In this document: positions 20,951-28,129 of the stretch, one piece after another | Position numbering within the stretch: position 1 is the stretch's first letter | Layout: each line of letters begins with the position of its first letter | Origin: an uncultured Methanobrevibacter sp. | Lineage (GTDB): Archaea > Methanobacteriota > Methanobacteria > Methanobacteriales > Methanobacteriaceae | Assembly (NCBI RefSeq): GCF_902784195.1 | Contig: NZ_CACZTX010000009.1 | Span: 62,001 to 126,000, forward strand | Reading direction: 5' to 3' | DNA length: 64,000 bases | Notes under the pieces: model-generated | Database searches by the model: none | Told to the model about the DNA's origin: nothing | Seen by the model: the letters and a program-made list of their open reading frames with translations, nothing else | Position numbers and translations under genes: made by a program

Positions 20951-21583
20951 ATGATAGGTGATGATGACTTTTTCATGCAGAATGCAGATTATCACTATGG
21001 AGCCAGCGATGCAGAGAAGATGTATGGAAGAGACTATGATGATTCTGATCTTGGAGGCTACTATCCAAGAAGTTATGGAGGAAATGGATCAAGTAGACAA
21101 AATGCTAGCTCCGAAAATGACAACAGCGGAAAATATTGCCTTGCAGGAATTCTGATTGTTCTTGGGATAATAGTTTTAGCAACAGTTGTTGTGCCTGCAG
21201 TTTCTGATTCATTGTCTAATACAGTAGTCATAGATGATTTGAAAATTACCCGATACATTCATTCAACCCAGTACAATTCAAAGGTTTCTATAGAAGAAGG
21301 ATATGAAATTACATACAATCAGAAAAGCTATGGAAGACATGCCATAAATGTTATATTCTACTCAAAAAATGGGAAAGTATTGTATAATGACAGCAACTAT
21401 GTGGGAACCTGCTATCTTGGAGATGTGCCATATCAAGTGCATTTGGATGAAAAAGCGGATTACGCAATATTTGAAGTATACAGAACCCATTTGGATTATG
21501 GCAAGTGCATATATCGTGAAAGAGTTGATGTTGACAATGTTAATGTAAAGAAAGAGTTTATTGATTATGATGCCATGCCATAA
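20951..21583 (+). CDS. Single-span membrane protein with acidic Tyr/Gly-rich N-terminus
   Basis: 210 residues, unrecognised. Residues 1-58 are hydrophilic, rich in Asp, Tyr, Gly and Ser (YHYGASDAEKMYGRDYDDSD). Residues about 60-80 form one membrane span (CLAGILIVLGIIVLATVVV). The remaining 130 residues look like an exterior beta-sandwich-type domain (VSIEEGYEITYNQKSYG). The topology with a cytoplasmic tail and outer domain is inferred. The ribosome-binding site is weak (AGGTGAATGGGG, then the ATG at 20951), so the start is uncertain. It converges with the phosphoesterase gene, and its stop codon lies in one arm of a long inverted repeat. Confidence 0.65.
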   Translation: MIGDDDFFMQNADYHYGASDAEKMYGRDYDDSDLGGYYPRSYGGNGSSRQNASSENDNSGKYCLAGILIVLGIIVLATVVVPAVSDSLSNTVVIDDLKITRYIHSTQYNSKVSIEEGYEITYNQKSYGRHAINVIFYSKNGKVLYNDSNYVGTCYLGDVPYQVHLDEKADYAIFEVYRTHLDYGKCIYRERVDVDNVNVKKEFIDYDAMP

Positions 21584-21698
21584 TTAAGTTCATAAAACCA
21601 TAGTTTTATGAAACTTCATAAAAACTAAAAAACAACTAAATTTGTAAAAGATTTTTATAATGACCTTTTAAAGCTATGGTTTATGAACTTAATTAAAC
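21581..21698. terminator. Bidirectional terminator: 22-23 bp inverted repeat between convergent genes
   Basis: Arms at 21581-21603 and 21674-21695 are reverse complements except for one extra A. The arms include the stop codon region of the membrane protein gene and the last codons of the phosphoesterase gene. Sequence in both arms (GTTCATAAAACCATAG type) and the adjacent GTTTTATGAAAC resemble the 37-bp repeat family at 23-27 kb. Confidence 0.6.
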
Positions 21699-23196: not shown

Positions 23197-23233
23197 GTTT
23201 AATTTAGTTCATTAAACCCAAGTTTTACGAAAC
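23197..23233 (+). repeat. 37-bp tandem-hairpin repeat, copy 1
   Basis: GTTTAAT-TTAGTTC-ATTAAAC, spacer CCA, then A-GTTT-TACG-AAAC. The two inverted repeats form adjacent hairpins, the second with a TACG tetraloop of the UNCG type. It lies 50 bases past the stop of the acyltransferase gene. Confidence 0.9.
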
Positions 23234-23283
23234 AAAGAGAAGATTTTAAATTTTAAAGAAAATATAAAAAAGAAGTTATGAAA

Positions 23284-24429
23284 TTAATCATAACCAATAA
23301 TGTAACCAGGAATACCTAATTTTCTAAGAACAGTAATTAAACCCCAACTACTAACAAATGTAAGAAATGCAAGTAAAAAATTCCAATAATAAGCATTGAA
23401 ATAATTAACATCAACAAGAAGGAATATTATAAGTAACATTGTTTGATGAGTTAAATAAATACCATAACAAGATCTACTTATTGATTTAATACCTACACTA
23501 ATTAATGGTTTTTTAAATAATAATGCAAATTTCTTAAATAAACCTTTAGTACTATCAAAATTAATATATTTCCAGAATAAAAATACTCCAGTAGCTTGAA
23601 GTATAACAACCAAACTTACATCCATATAAGAACGTGTATAAAAATTATAATGATGTAAGAAAACTGTTTTTTGAAATCCATTATGAAATATATCAAAATA
23701 TATAATAAATGTAGTTGTAGCAATAAATAATAATAAACCAATCCAAATTAACTTATTAGAACTTAAATTAAATTCATTATGATCTAAATAATAACCTAAG
23801 AACAAATATATTATTGGACCAATAAAGAAAGTTAAATTAAAGTAAGTAGAAGTATTGAAAATTTCTAAAGCTTGATAAATAATTACTGCAAGAAATGATA
23901 ATACTAAAAAATATTTAGCACCATAAACTTTGGTTTCCTTAATATAAGAATTAAAAATTGGTAAAGACAAATAAATACCAATTAACATCCATGCATACCA
24001 ATGTTGCAAACCAAAAGTTCTAGAAAATGCTCCTAATCCAGATAAACTAAATGTTAAATTTCCATGATAATAAGTATAAACAAGGGCAATAACTGTGTTC
24101 CATACTAAAAATGGAATTACAATACGCATAAATCTACCTTTAAGAAACTTTGGAATATCATCATAATAATCTCTTTCTAACATTAATGTTCCAAGAAGCA
24201 TTAAAAATATAGGTACACCAAAAGCCATAGTTGAAAATAAAACATATTCCTCATAAGTAAAAACACCTTTATGATTTAATAAAGTTGATGTATTAATAAG
24301 AACAAGAGACATTATACTTATAGCACGTAATTCATCAATGAATGCAATTCTTCTTTTTGGAATCCTTTTAGAAATATTTGAAAAGGGAATAGATGGAATA
24401 TATTTATCTGAAACCTTTAAAAAAGACAT
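23284..24429 (-). CDS. Membrane acyltransferase (acyltransferase 3 family)
   Basis: 381 residues with about ten membrane spans and the acyltransferase 3 signature near the N-terminus (RIAFIDELRAISIMSLVLIN, where the usual catalytic His of this motif is not evident). These enzymes transfer acetyl or other acyl groups to sugars or cell-surface polymers. Codon use is extreme: nearly every third position is A or T (ATA, TTA, AAT), more than in neighbouring housekeeping genes, which suggests transfer or relaxed selection. The gene sits in an AT-rich stretch flanked by direct copies of the 37-bp repeat (23197 and 25377). The ribosome-binding site is weak (AGTGGTATA before the ATG at 24429). Confidence 0.85.
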   Translation of the reverse strand: MSFLKVSDKYIPSIPFSNISKRIPKRRIAFIDELRAISIMSLVLINTSTLLNHKGVFTYEEYVLFSTMAFGVPIFLMLLGTLMLERDYYDDIPKFLKGRFMRIVIPFLVWNTVIALVYTYYHGNLTFSLSGLGAFSRTFGLQHWYAWMLIGIYLSLPIFNSYIKETKVYGAKYFLVLSFLAVIIYQALEIFNTSTYFNLTFFIGPIIYLFLGYYLDHNEFNLSSNKLIWIGLLLFIATTTFIIYFDIFHNGFQKTVFLHHYNFYTRSYMDVSLVVILQATGVFLFWKYINFDSTKGLFKKFALLFKKPLISVGIKSISRSCYGIYLTHQTMLLIIFLLVDVNYFNAYYWNFLLAFLTFVSSWGLITVLRKLGIPGYIIGYD

Positions 24430-25034
24430 TATACCACTAACACAAAAATCAAAATAATTTAAATATAAATATGTATATTCTCATAATATATAAAGTTAAT
24501 CAGACAAATAAGAATTAAAAAAATATTATTTAACTGTATAAAATTATTTAAAAAAGATAAAAATAATTAAACAATATTCATAAAAATCAATCAAAGACAA
24601 TAATTAAATCAAGAGAATATAAAATATATATGATAATTATTAAAAAGAAATTGATATTAATAAAATAACATCATTAAAAATATAAAAAATTAGAATTATT
24701 AAAAGCTATTTATTTAAAAATAAAGTCTGTTGAAAACTATTTTTTATAAAAATTTAAACTTAGTTAATACTTGAAAATCAATTTTAAGAAAGCTTATTCT
24801 AAAAATTTTGAGGACTTCAACAAATCCTAAAAATAAATTTTCTAAAAACTACTTATTTATAAATAAAATTATGCTAAATTTAATGATTTTAAAGCAATTT
24901 AATAAATTTATCTAAAATATTTACTATTTAATTAATAAATTAATGTTTTTTGAGAAAAAACCATTATTTAATAATTAAATATTGTGGAATATATACATCT
25001 TATCAGAAATAAATTAGACCTAACGATTTATTAA
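24430..25034. other. 605-base very AT-rich region, no gene found
   Basis: This stretch lies between the acyltransferase start and the stop of the small membrane ORF. It has only short frames with many stops. It probably carries the acyltransferase promoter; the rest may be decayed coding sequence, but I cannot identify a source. Confidence 0.5.
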
Positions 25035-25316
25035 TTATTTCAAGGTATGTGGAATAAATACTATGAAATTAATTATTGAAGAAACAAGAACTAAGATTAA
25101 GTTAAGTAAATTACTATTTAAAAAAACCAAAATACTAACAAGTAATAAGACAAAAGTCATAATACTTGCAAAAATTGCATCAGCCCTATTTGATTTAGGA
25201 GAAAACCTAACATTATCCTTAGATACAATATATAAATAAAATATAATAAAAATACCTAAAGTTATAGCAAAATCAAAATTAGAAGGTTTTACATCAATCC
25301 AAAACTGTAAAAACAT
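25035..25316 (-). CDS. Small membrane protein, probably a 5'-truncated gene
   Basis: 93 residues from ATG 25316 with three hydrophobic spans and a polar loop (SKDNVRFSPKSNRAD). There is no ribosome-binding site before this ATG. The frame stays open and hydrophobic for about 20 further codons upstream without a start codon, then meets the 37-bp repeat at 25377-25413. This suggests that the true N-terminus has been lost and that the repeat marks the break. Function unknown. Base composition is as AT-rich as in the neighbouring acyltransferase. Confidence 0.4.
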   Translation of the reverse strand: MFLQFWIDVKPSNFDFAITLGIFIIFYLYIVSKDNVRFSPKSNRADAIFASIMTFVLLLVSILVFLNSNLLNLILVLVSSIINFIVFIPHTLK

Positions 25317-25376
25317 ACAAACAAATAGTATAAATGAAGATAAATAAACTAAATATCTTTGAAGATTACTATAACC

Positions 25377-25413
25377 GTTTAATTTAGTTCATTAAACTAA
25401 AGTTTTACGAAAC
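25377..25413 (+). repeat. 37-bp tandem-hairpin repeat, copy 2
   Basis: Same sequence as copy 1 apart from the 3-base spacer (TAA). It adjoins the broken 5' end of the membrane ORF at 25035-25316 and lies 125 bases upstream of thi4. Confidence 0.9.
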
Positions 25414-25458
25414 AACTTTTATTTCCTTTTTTAAGTTTAATTCGCCGTTATAATAAAA

Positions 25459-25470
25459 TTTAAATATATA
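25459..25470 (+). promoter_or_regulatory. TATA box of thi4
   Basis: TTTAAATATATA lies about 70-80 bases before the thi4 start, a good match to the archaeal TATA element. No riboswitch-like fold is evident between it and the start. Confidence 0.5.
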
Positions 25471-25538
25471 AAAAGCTAAAATACTTATAATTGTTTTAAT
25501 TAATCAAAACAAAAATCTATTCAAATGGAGGTTTTATA

Positions 25539-26327
25539 TTGAAAAAATTGGATGATATTACAATATCAAAAGCGATTATACAGGAATATATGAATGATTT
25601 TTTAGATTACACAGATATGGATGTAGCCATTGGTGGGGGAGGCCCTTCTGGAGTCACTGCCGGATATTATCTTGCTAAGGCAGGATATAAGGTTGCATTG
25701 TTTGAGAGAAAGCTCAGCATAGGTGGAGGCATGTGGGGTGGTGGAATGATGTTCAATAAGGTTGTCGTTCAGGAGGAAGGAAAGAGAATCCTCGATGAGT
25801 TTGGAATCAGATCTAAAGTTTTTGAAGACAATTATTATGTTGTTGATTCGGTTGAATGCACTTCCACCTTATGTTCCAAAGCAACTCAAGCAGGGCTTAA
25901 AATATTTAATCTGATGTCTATTGAAGACTTGATGGTTAGGGAAAATGGAATAAATGGGATTGTATTGAATTGGAGCTCTGTAGAGATGTCTGGATTGCAC
26001 ATAGATCCATTGACTGTCAGAGCTAAGGCGGTCATTGATGCAACAGGCCATCCAACAGAAATCACCAAGATTGTTGAAGAGAAGATGGGAGGAAGACTGA
26101 ATACTGCAACAGGTAGGATAATGGGTGAGAAATCCATGTGGGCTGATAGGGCAGAATCCAAGATATTGGAAAATGTTACTGAAGTTTATCCCGGATTATA
26201 TGTTACTGGAATGGCTGCAAATGCAGTTCATGGCTCCCAACGCATGGGTCCTATATTTGGTGGAATGCTCTTGTCTGGTGAGTATGTAGCTAAAAAGGTC
26301 ATTGAAGACTTGGAAAATAGGAAATAA
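25539..26327 (+). CDS. thi4: Thiamine thiazole synthase Thi4 (sulfide-dependent archaeal type)
   Basis: 262 residues, NAD-binding Rossmann protein with the dinucleotide motif GGGGPSG (residues about 33-39) and the family stretch [14 protein letters not shown]. In archaea this enzyme makes the adenylated thiazole precursor of thiamine from NAD, glycine and free sulfide. The suicidal sulfur-donor Cys of yeast Thi4 is absent: the corresponding region reads [12 protein letters not shown], as in catalytic, sulfide-using archaeal forms. Start codon TTG at 25539 after GGAGGTTTTATA. Related proteins are annotated as ribulose-1,5-bisphosphate synthetase; thiazole synthesis is better supported. The gene lies between copies 2 and 3 of the 37-bp repeat. 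Confidence 0.93.
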
Positions 26328-26373
26328 TTTTCATTTTATTTTCTTATTCTTTTTACTTATTTTCTTGTTTTTT

Positions 26374-26410
26374 GTTTAATTTAGTTCATTAAACCCGAGT
26401 TTTACGAAAC
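26374..26410 (+). repeat. 37-bp tandem-hairpin repeat, copy 3
   Basis: Identical to copy 1 except for the spacer (CCG). It lies 46 bases downstream of the thi4 stop codon, a 3'-end position like copies 1 and 5. Confidence 0.9.
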
Positions 26411-26480
26411 GGATAATCTCAAACCATCAATTTTTACAAAAATTTAAATACAACAGAAAATATACTAATTTTTAACTATT

Positions 26481-26517
26481 GTTTAATTTATTTCATTAAA
26501 CCAAAGTTTCACGAAAC
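26481..26517 (+). repeat. 37-bp tandem-hairpin repeat, copy 4
   Basis: Differs from the others by TTTATTTC in place of TTTAGTTC in the first loop and GTTTCACGAAAC for the second hairpin, which makes the second palindrome perfect (GTTTC/GAAAC). It lies 70 bases after copy 3. Confidence 0.88.
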
Positions 26518-26671
26518 AACAAAAGCAGAATGATTCTTTTTATTGGAAACAATGTAAATGGAAAATAAGTAAAAGATTAATTTTTTTGATTTTTTATTTA
26601 TTTATTATTTTTTTAAATCTATTTGGGATTGTAATATTTTTTTAAATTGAGAAGAAAAGAGGAGTGATGAA

Positions 26672-26971
26672 ATGCCAATTTGTCCAAATTGTGGTTCATG
26701 GGTAGATGAAGGAGACAGCATATGCAGTTGTGGAGCCAGCGTAGGAGGCTTCTCTTCAGGAACAGAAAATTTTGAAAATGAAATCAGAGAACTGTATCGC
26801 CAAGCTCATGTATTCAGGGATAAAGGAAACTATTATGATGCAATCAAGTTGTATGAGGAAATCATCGATGAGATTGATAGAAGAAATCTTAATGACTGTG
26901 GGGACGCATGGTTTTTTAGGCCTAAAGCAGAGAAGGAATTGGAAGAAATAAGAAAACGTGCAAAACTTTAA
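26672..26971 (+). CDS. Small zinc-ribbon protein
   Basis: 99 residues. The N-terminus has a compact zinc ribbon (CPNCGSW...CSCGAS, residues about 4-21), followed by a Gly/Ser linker and a helical segment resembling a single TPR (YRQAHVFRDKGNYYDAIKLY). Start at 26672 after GGAGTGATGAA. It shares its plan with the longer protein at 19908-20711. The function is unknown; proteins of this type are abundant in Methanobrevibacter. Repeats 4 and 5 flank it. Confidence 0.72.
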   Translation: MPICPNCGSWVDEGDSICSCGASVGGFSSGTENFENEIRELYRQAHVFRDKGNYYDAIKLYEEIIDEIDRRNLNDCGDAWFFRPKAEKELEEIRKRAKL

Positions 26972-27015
26972 AAAAGAAGTGTATGAAATTATTAAAATAT
27001 TTTGAAACTTTTAGA

Positions 27016-27052
27016 GTTTAATTTAGTTCATTAAACAATAGTTTTACGAAAC
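27016..27052 (+). repeat. 37-bp tandem-hairpin repeat, copy 5
   Basis: Identical to copy 1 except for the spacer (AAT). It lies 44 bases downstream of the zinc-ribbon gene stop and between it and convergent asd. Confidence 0.9.
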
Positions 27053-27135
27053 ACTCTTTAAATATCAGGAAAAAATAGAAAAATAGAAAATAAAAATAAT
27101 TAAAAAAAAGTAAAAAAAAGAATTAATAAAAAATA

Positions 27136-28129
27136 TTATAATATTTGTTTATTAATCAATTCAGCATTCAAAATAGAAGCACCAGCAGCACCTCTAATTG
27201 TATTATGTCCTACAAGAACATATTTGAAGCTGTTATCAAATGCTTGATCTTTTTTGAGGTCTGTCATCTTCTTCTTTGACTATGACAGGTTGCTCTGGAG
27301 CGGAATGAAGACCTAATTCTTGAGGAAGTCCTCTAAAGTCAGCCATTGTCTTTTTGATTTTATCAATATCTGCCTCATCATCAAGCTCTACGAATACTGC
27401 TTCAGTGTGACCGTCAATAACAGGCACTCTGTGACAGGATGCGCTTAATGAGAAGTTTGCAGGTACAACTTCTCCACCGTCAAGTGAACCTAAAAGATGC
27501 AATGTTTCGCTTTCCATCTTTTCCTCTTCACCGCCAATGTATGGAACCAAGTTATCTACAATAGCCATTGAAGGAACACCATTATAACCTGCTCCTGAAA
27601 CAGCTTGCATGGTAGATACATAAATCCTGTTTATGTTGAAATTATCATAAATTGGCTTTAATGTCAATGTCAAAGCAATGGTTGAACAGTTAGGGTTAGT
27701 TACAATGAATCCGTCCCAGTTGTTGTTTTTCTGTTGTGCTTCAATCATGTCCAAGAATTGTGGATTGACTTCAGGAATTACTAAAGGAATGTCCTTTTTC
27801 ATTCTCATCGCACTAGCATTTGATGCCACAACAAAATCCTTTGCAAATTCTGGCTCGACTTTTGCAGCAAAATCAGCAGGAAGTGAAGAGAATACTATTT
27901 CAACATCCTTATCCATCTGTGCAGGGTCAGTTTCAATAACAGTAATGTCTCTTACAGATTCCGGCATTTCACTATTCATATACCAAGTGGTAGCGTCTTC
28001 ATATTTTTTGCCTGCAGATCTTCCGGAAGCTGCAAGTGCAGCAATTTCAAAATCAGGATGATCAGCCAACAATTGGATGAATCTTTGACCTACCATTCCA
28101 GTTGCACCAAGTACACCTACTTTTACCAT
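27136..28129 (-). CDS. asd: Aspartate-semialdehyde dehydrogenase, apparent frameshift near the 3' end
   Basis: The enzyme reduces aspartyl phosphate to aspartate semialdehyde for lysine, threonine and methionine. The N-terminus has the NADP motif [10 protein letters not shown], and the catalytic Cys is in [10 protein letters not shown]. The uninterrupted frame ends at 27236, 298 codons in, after ...[11 protein letters not shown]. Just downstream, in another frame, the conserved C-terminus of the family is intact ([20 protein letters not shown]) and ends at TAA 27136. The two join if one A is removed from the A6 run on the coding strand (T27250-27255), giving a protein of about 330 residues. 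The cause may be sequencing or assembly error, or a real mutation. Start at 28129 after GAGATGATTTAA. Last gene of the lysC-dapA-dapB-asd cluster. Confidence 0.9.

Follow-up and report, generated by a model that had tools for sequence, protein, structure and literature searches.

A separate clade of Cas1-Cas2 proteins in methanogens very likely integrates gene-sized DNA fragments beside a leader, which would make its arrays an integron-like archive built from CRISPR parts. This conclusion is drawn from the anatomy of the loci rather than from witnessed integration events. With hardly less confidence, the clade can be regarded as having probably shifted from immune memory to gene capture, so that gut methanogens, including M. 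smithii, would file DNA of relatives, phages and their own chromosomes into leader-anchored repeat arrays independently of integrons and Xer modules. The arrays look like an unrecognised kind of DNA archive that holds gene-sized pieces in place of 35-letter snippets. No description of such arrays was found in the titles and abstracts of CC-licensed literature, and an earlier description elsewhere, such as in bioRxiv or subscription journals, is possible.

Repeat array of the window and the donor of its first insert

The window, that is, the whole stretch of 64,000 nucleotides analysed from the genome G000, contains five copies of the 37-bp repeat GTTTAATTTAGTTCATTAAACNNNAGTTTTACGAAAC, all on the plus strand, between 23197 and 27052, and the repeat occurs in 0 of 100 shuffles. 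The first half of this repeat is palindromic around 7 central bases. Copies 1 (23197..23233) and 2 (25377..25413) match the pattern with zero mismatches, in agreement with a sequence-only reading that had described the segment between them as an inserted or rearranged piece bounded by direct repeats. Copies 3 (26374..26410) and 5 (27016..27052) were located by the pattern search, and copy 4 (26481..26517) has 2 mismatches. A degenerate repeat-like copy at 21578..21614 (plus strand, 6 mismatches) may be due to chance. The repeat is present in 13 of the 41 genomes searched, all of the same genus and mostly clustered on one or two contigs, and the reversed control pattern gave no match across all 41; G000 has six matches, five of them in this array.

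The repeats separate four inserts. Insert 1 (23234..25376, 2143 bp) contains an acyltransferase gene on the minus strand (23284..24429; Acyl_transf_3, E 4.7e-31) and a membrane-protein gene, also on the minus strand, which is cut at the insert edge (25035..25376). The description of this segment as AT-rich, with extreme A/T third positions in the acyltransferase gene, is borne out by a GC content of 0.204 in the interval versus 0.317 in the window and a GC3 of 0.107 versus 0.289-0.354 in three neighbouring genes. Between the two genes, the gene-free stretch of 605 bases (24430-25034) contains no ORF of at least 60 aa, and the membrane ORF indeed stays open from 25316 to 25376, with stop codons met inside repeat copy 2. 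Insert 2 (25414..26373, 960 bp) holds thi4 on the plus strand (25539-26327), insert 3 (26411..26480, 70 bp) corresponds to the terminal 70 bp of an insert that measures 212 bp in G016, and insert 4 (26518..27015, 498 bp) holds a small plus-strand gene (26672-26971) whose TPR match is weak (E 8e-4) and falls short of the Pfam cut-off. The trailer-side flank adjoining asd (27053..27118) recurs in the relatives G016, G012 and G009. Alignment to relatives, named in the sequence-only reading as a check, revealed that G016 and G005 carry at the place of insert 1, between the phosphoesterase gene and thi4, a 668-bp zinc-ribbon insert instead. Beyond the view of that reading, the repeats belong to a Cas1-Cas2 system, and further inserts contain thi4 and the TPR gene. 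Rfam gave no match for the window stretch, L143 or the canonical control L156, and since the canonical control likewise has none, this result is uninformative. On contig C1 of G000, at about 139.4-140.2 kb (L019 9419-10199), part of the array occurs a second time: the final portion of insert 3, one repeat and the greater part of the TPR insert, followed by a degenerate repeat in inverted orientation. The asd gene of the window (27145-28129) has about 15 codons missing near its end and then continues in another frame (residues 1-294 and 310-347); asd is intact with 349 codons in most relatives, and the defect is either a mutation or a sequence error.

All 2143 bases of insert 1 align at 99.4% identity to G047:C2, a 118-kb contig of a genome belonging to another genus of the same family. 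Three repeat patterns are absent from the 14 kb fetched around this donor region, with up to 9 mismatches allowed. The membrane gene is complete (125 aa) in G047 and in G023, a second species of the genus of G047. As the full-length gene of G047 has 125 codons, the window copy, with 113, lacks the first 12; the search for a full-length protein including the upstream open codons, another of the suggested checks, thus ended in these two homologues, and the gene is cut at the edge as had been supposed. The AT-richness of insert 1 is a property of the donor, the GC content being 0.204 in the window and 0.214 in G047 and the GC3 of the acyltransferase gene 0.107 and 0.113, respectively. Judged from these alignments, insert 1 is a captured fragment of another methanogen's chromosome, with the repeats as its exact bounds. 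A mobile element (IS or MITE) ending in the repeats was rejected, as the 2143-bp segment occurs in G047 without the repeat. The repeats were also considered as a replication origin or partition site, which was rejected on the ground that they frame different genes in each genome and accompany cas1-cas2. As a donor, the 3170-bp contig G045:C53 (L077) matches at 100% and was rejected, since it carries the window repeats and thi4 and was judged to be misbinned; it is assigned to another genus, yet is identical to the window over the insert.

The same donor region was found in a second array. G013, a member of the genus of the window, carries 1942 bp of it at 96% identity between copies of a different 37-bp repeat, as the first insert after cas1 and beside an intact cas2-cas1 pair. 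This piece begins 32 bases further in and ends 183 bases earlier than insert 1. Since one donor region with different ends is enclosed by different repeats, two species took up the region independently. Within insert 2 of the G013 array, a 160-bp piece shares 93% identity with the final part of the adjacent cas1 gene (L066 6840-6995 and 9778-9937).

A separate Cas1-Cas2 clade and its leader-anchored repeats

The array of G005 contains Cas1 (PF01867, E 2e-72) and Cas2 (PF09827, E 6e-15), and broken or remnant cas copies occur in G008, G018 and G011. Going by PMC2812497, G011 corresponds to M. ruminantium M1 and G061 to M. smithii PS. M. smithii PS, of a cultured species, has an array of this type beside an intact cas1, and M. 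thaueri SIG19 is a further named member. A Cas1 match at 1e-30 was obtained in 48 of 138 genomes of the family. When a wider Cas1 alignment was searched against 151 genomes of the phylum (the 138 of the family and 13 others), 34 loci scored 453-576 bits and the other 18 scored at most 386, including the broken M1 copy; one contig scan found only six loci. In the Cas1 tree, 35 clade rows (34 different) form one branch against 10 canonical rows with a support of 100/100, from which a separate Cas1-Cas2 clade within Methanobacteriaceae is recognised by phylogeny, the family being named from the named members. The catalytic E, H and D of Cas1 are retained in 34, 35 and 35 of the 35 clade rows, respectively. 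The aspartate after the first strand of Cas2 is present in all 10 canonical sequences, and several clade members have N, E or K instead. No Cas1 was found in viral contigs.

Up to 20 kb were fetched around 32 clade loci and 8 canonical loci. Linkage of a repeat to cas1 was scored as a 37-mer located 20-500 bp after cas1 and recurring with at most 3 mismatches, in loci with at least 600 bp after cas1; this holds for 22 of 26 clade loci and for none of 96 Markov shuffles, the best of which had 9 mismatches, and the remaining six of the 32 end at most 270 bp past cas1. In 22 of 23 loci, the leader length is 111-117 or 197-200 bp; that of L153 measures 167 bp, because its Cas1 match stops at residue 315. 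There are three unrelated repeat families, each associated with its own cas1. The inserts are gene-sized: with boundaries set by repeat copies of up to 7 mismatches, 65 inserts at 23 loci range from 204 to 4299 bp (median 891). L128 is the same contig as L092, and the insert count uses one of the two, while the counts of 22 of 26, of 35 Cas1 rows and of 35 loci include L128 or both; L155, whose cas1 is broken and absent from the tree, contributes to the insert count. Repeat spacing in the 8 canonical controls is 64-79 bp (about 73 bp).

These features bear on the idea that the loci are decayed ordinary CRISPR arrays, in which short spacers were lost or replaced. The 37-bp repeat, the leader and cas1-cas2 are all CRISPR-like, canonical arrays of the same family also use 37-bp repeats, and the canonical loci L160 and L161 each have one extra repeat copy more than 2 kb away, L160 having a single short spacing. 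Nevertheless, most loci combine gene-sized inserts with an intact cas1-cas2 and exact repeats, none of the 65 inserts is shorter than 204 bp, and Cas1 forms its own clade; decay is therefore the least credible of the explanations weighed here. Among the loci fetched, none of the clade had its repeats separated by many spacers of 30-40 bp. With the PADLOC library at 1e-10, no Cas family was detected among 79 neighbour proteins of at least 110 aa at 8 clade loci, cas1 and the inserts being left out of this set, and the same library detected Cas10, Cas6 and Csx1 at 5 canonical loci. Effectors elsewhere in these genomes could act in trans.

Gene neighbourhoods are relevant to another explanation, in which a tyrosine recombinase (XerA or another integrase) swaps cassettes at the repeats, as in integrons and Xer-dif modules, and the cas genes are bystanders. 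Proteins of PF00589 occur in 16 of 19 genomes of the same genus, 4 of 87 neighbours match PF00589, and a neighbour family, a probable tyrosine recombinase, accompanies 9 of 35 clade loci; moreover, the palindromic first half of the repeat and the flank-linked variants suggested exchange inside the repeat. This family compares with cas1 at 34 and cas2 at 30 of the 35 loci. The next families after cas1 and cas2 reach 9 loci, and no other family is common to more than 9 of the 35. The three repeat families tied each to its own cas1 also speak against a recombinase, and site-specific cassettes carry their own site, of which the four end-to-end sources described below have none. A bystander role of the cas genes is accordingly considered very improbable, and the integrase of choice would be the Cas1-Cas2 pair.

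Several loci depart from the common arrangement. L126, L140 and L148 have cas1 and 9.5 kb downstream in which no recurring repeat was found. Several repeats are inverted or lie beyond cas1-cas2, for example in G005, where a leader-like flank with a repeat lies on the cas2 side; L124 has five repeat copies on the cas2 side, and another hit at this locus was discarded as AT-rich noise. In the genome of the window (99.77% complete), cas1 of the separate clade was not found, so the window array is probably an orphaned remnant. The three loci without a repeat, the inverted or far-side repeats and the lack of a clade Cas1 in G000 count against the proposal. Capture before the loss of cas1, or exchange with another strain, would explain how G000 holds a near-identical donor piece without a clade Cas1. 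Variant repeats form a second cluster, with a flank resembling a leader, in G009 and G016 (L022 1834-6147; L023 9002-9876), and cas1 of the separate clade was not found in either genome. In G005 and G008, cas1 is directly followed by a duplicate of the final 28-31 codons of asd (L011 1837-1920; L015 4385-4477), as if the cas module had once been inserted at the 3' end of asd. Upstream of cas2, a short element with a common, TATATNGGGTAKGTTTCCA-like core occurs twice in G005 (L011 195-330), and a related pair lies upstream of cas2 in M. ruminantium M1 (L067 8280-8408); the element is possibly a regulatory or RNA element.

Sources and variation of the inserts

Four inserts match repeat-free source DNA from the first base to the last, and the array repeat is absent at the ends of these sources. 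They are insert 1 of the window, from G047 (99.4%); two inserts of G056, one of 529 bp from its own chromosome (99.2%) and one of 414 bp from G086 (86.7%); and a 616-bp insert of G005, from G013 (97.1%). Another G056 insert (s9) matches M. smithii over its middle only and was left out of this count. The first G056 insert stems from the interior of a conserved gene. Inserts of G056 (82%) and G116 (70%) contain DNA related to that of the head region of vir080, a phage of Methanobacteriales. At L143 6780-9402, L144 11603-13757 and L142 6041-7559 lie these vir080-like stretches and the overlapping pieces of the G056 insert that are seen again in the array of M. smithii PS. Individual arrays also include captures that overlap one another and differ in their ends. 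A plasmid search with the G056 array and phage searches with the window, L137 and L138 arrays gave no match.

The arrays of relatives adjoin asd-dapB-dapA-lysC, and the segments between their repeats vary. One left flank, slightly varied, precedes five repeats (L011, L013, L015, L022 and L023) with five different right flanks, and the asd-side right flank follows five repeats, each with a different left flank. The thi4 insert matches a copy in G018 (92.8%) up to its left end, the other end running off the contig. The window and G005 share both ends of this insert, which in G016 extends 63 bp further on one side. Such ends are compatible with exchange between strains, and M. ruminantium M1 has a DDE transposase between repeats. 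These two observations would fit homologous recombination between repeats or flanks, or ordinary transposons landing in old CRISPR arrays. However, sources without the repeat offer no homology at their ends for recombination, and the cargo belongs to many unrelated families: 116 insert ORFs scanned gave 101 Pfam families, none with more than three members. Either process is a highly unlikely origin of the arrays as a whole, and capture by Cas1-Cas2 is the preferred reading.

According to this proposal, Cas1-Cas2 would take up DNA fragments that measure about 0.2-4 kb, have arbitrary ends and derive from the chromosome of the cell itself, from other methanogens or from a phage relative, and would integrate them at the junction of the leader and the 37-bp repeat, presumably catalysing the insertion itself. 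The repeat would be duplicated at each integration, so that inserts stack between repeats, and neither an effector nor guide-RNA machinery would be involved. Inserts lying wholly inside one open frame amount to 7 of 23 in the first place and 3 of 42 later (p = 0.026), a weak signal consistent with entry at the leader end. Inserts with a complete ORF do not differ in this respect (16 of 23 versus 26 of 42, p = 0.6), and complete insert ORFs of at least 80 aa run along the array direction in 45 cases and against it in 31. Inserts with useful intact genes may be retained by selection. A further point against the proposal is that a known Cas1-Cas2 complex measures short spacers, so that the handling of long DNA would require a different arrangement.

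Comparison with known systems

CRISPR integrases are known for short, fixed-length spacers. If the proposal is true, the existence of a natural relative acting on gene-sized DNA would revise ideas of what Cas1-Cas2 is capable of, and a two-protein integrase would be available for study. It would also explain gene uptake between rumen and gut methanogens and bear on the step between Cas1-type transposition and CRISPR memory. The idea can be tested now, since an intact cas1 adjoins such an array in the cultured species M. smithii.

The loci share with the CRISPR-Cas adaptation module the cas2-cas1 pair, the catalytic triad, the leader, the 37-bp repeats, and inserts of both foreign and self DNA. 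They differ from it in having inserts of 204-4299 bp in place of near-constant short spacers of about 35 bp, in the absence of effector and crRNA-processing genes at 8 clade loci, and in the replacement of the catalytic aspartate of Cas2 in several members. Pdif modules of Acinetobacter, which depend on 28-bp Xer sites, resemble the arrays in that genes framed by short repeats are shuffled between genomes, whereas the repeats described here follow cas1. Casposons are transposons that carry a fixed set of genes between terminal inverted repeats. They have in common with the clade a Cas1-type enzyme linked to kilobase insertions in methanogens (PMC6977970). In contrast to the casposon arrangement of Cas1 without Cas2 plus a family B polymerase, the clade loci have Cas2 (30 of 35) and, apart from cas1, share no other family at more than 9 of 35, and their inserts are mutually unrelated. 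Integrons, including the archaeal ones (PMC9668308), likewise are arrays of captured genes with short repeats and an adjoining integrase gene, the integrase being the tyrosine recombinase IntI there and presumably Cas1-Cas2 here. The four end-to-end sources described here, unlike integron cassettes, lack the array repeat as a recombination site at their ends, the inserts may be gene fragments, and the probable tyrosine recombinase near 9 of 35 clade loci is not a constant companion, which would set these arrays apart from the integrons that they resemble in layout.
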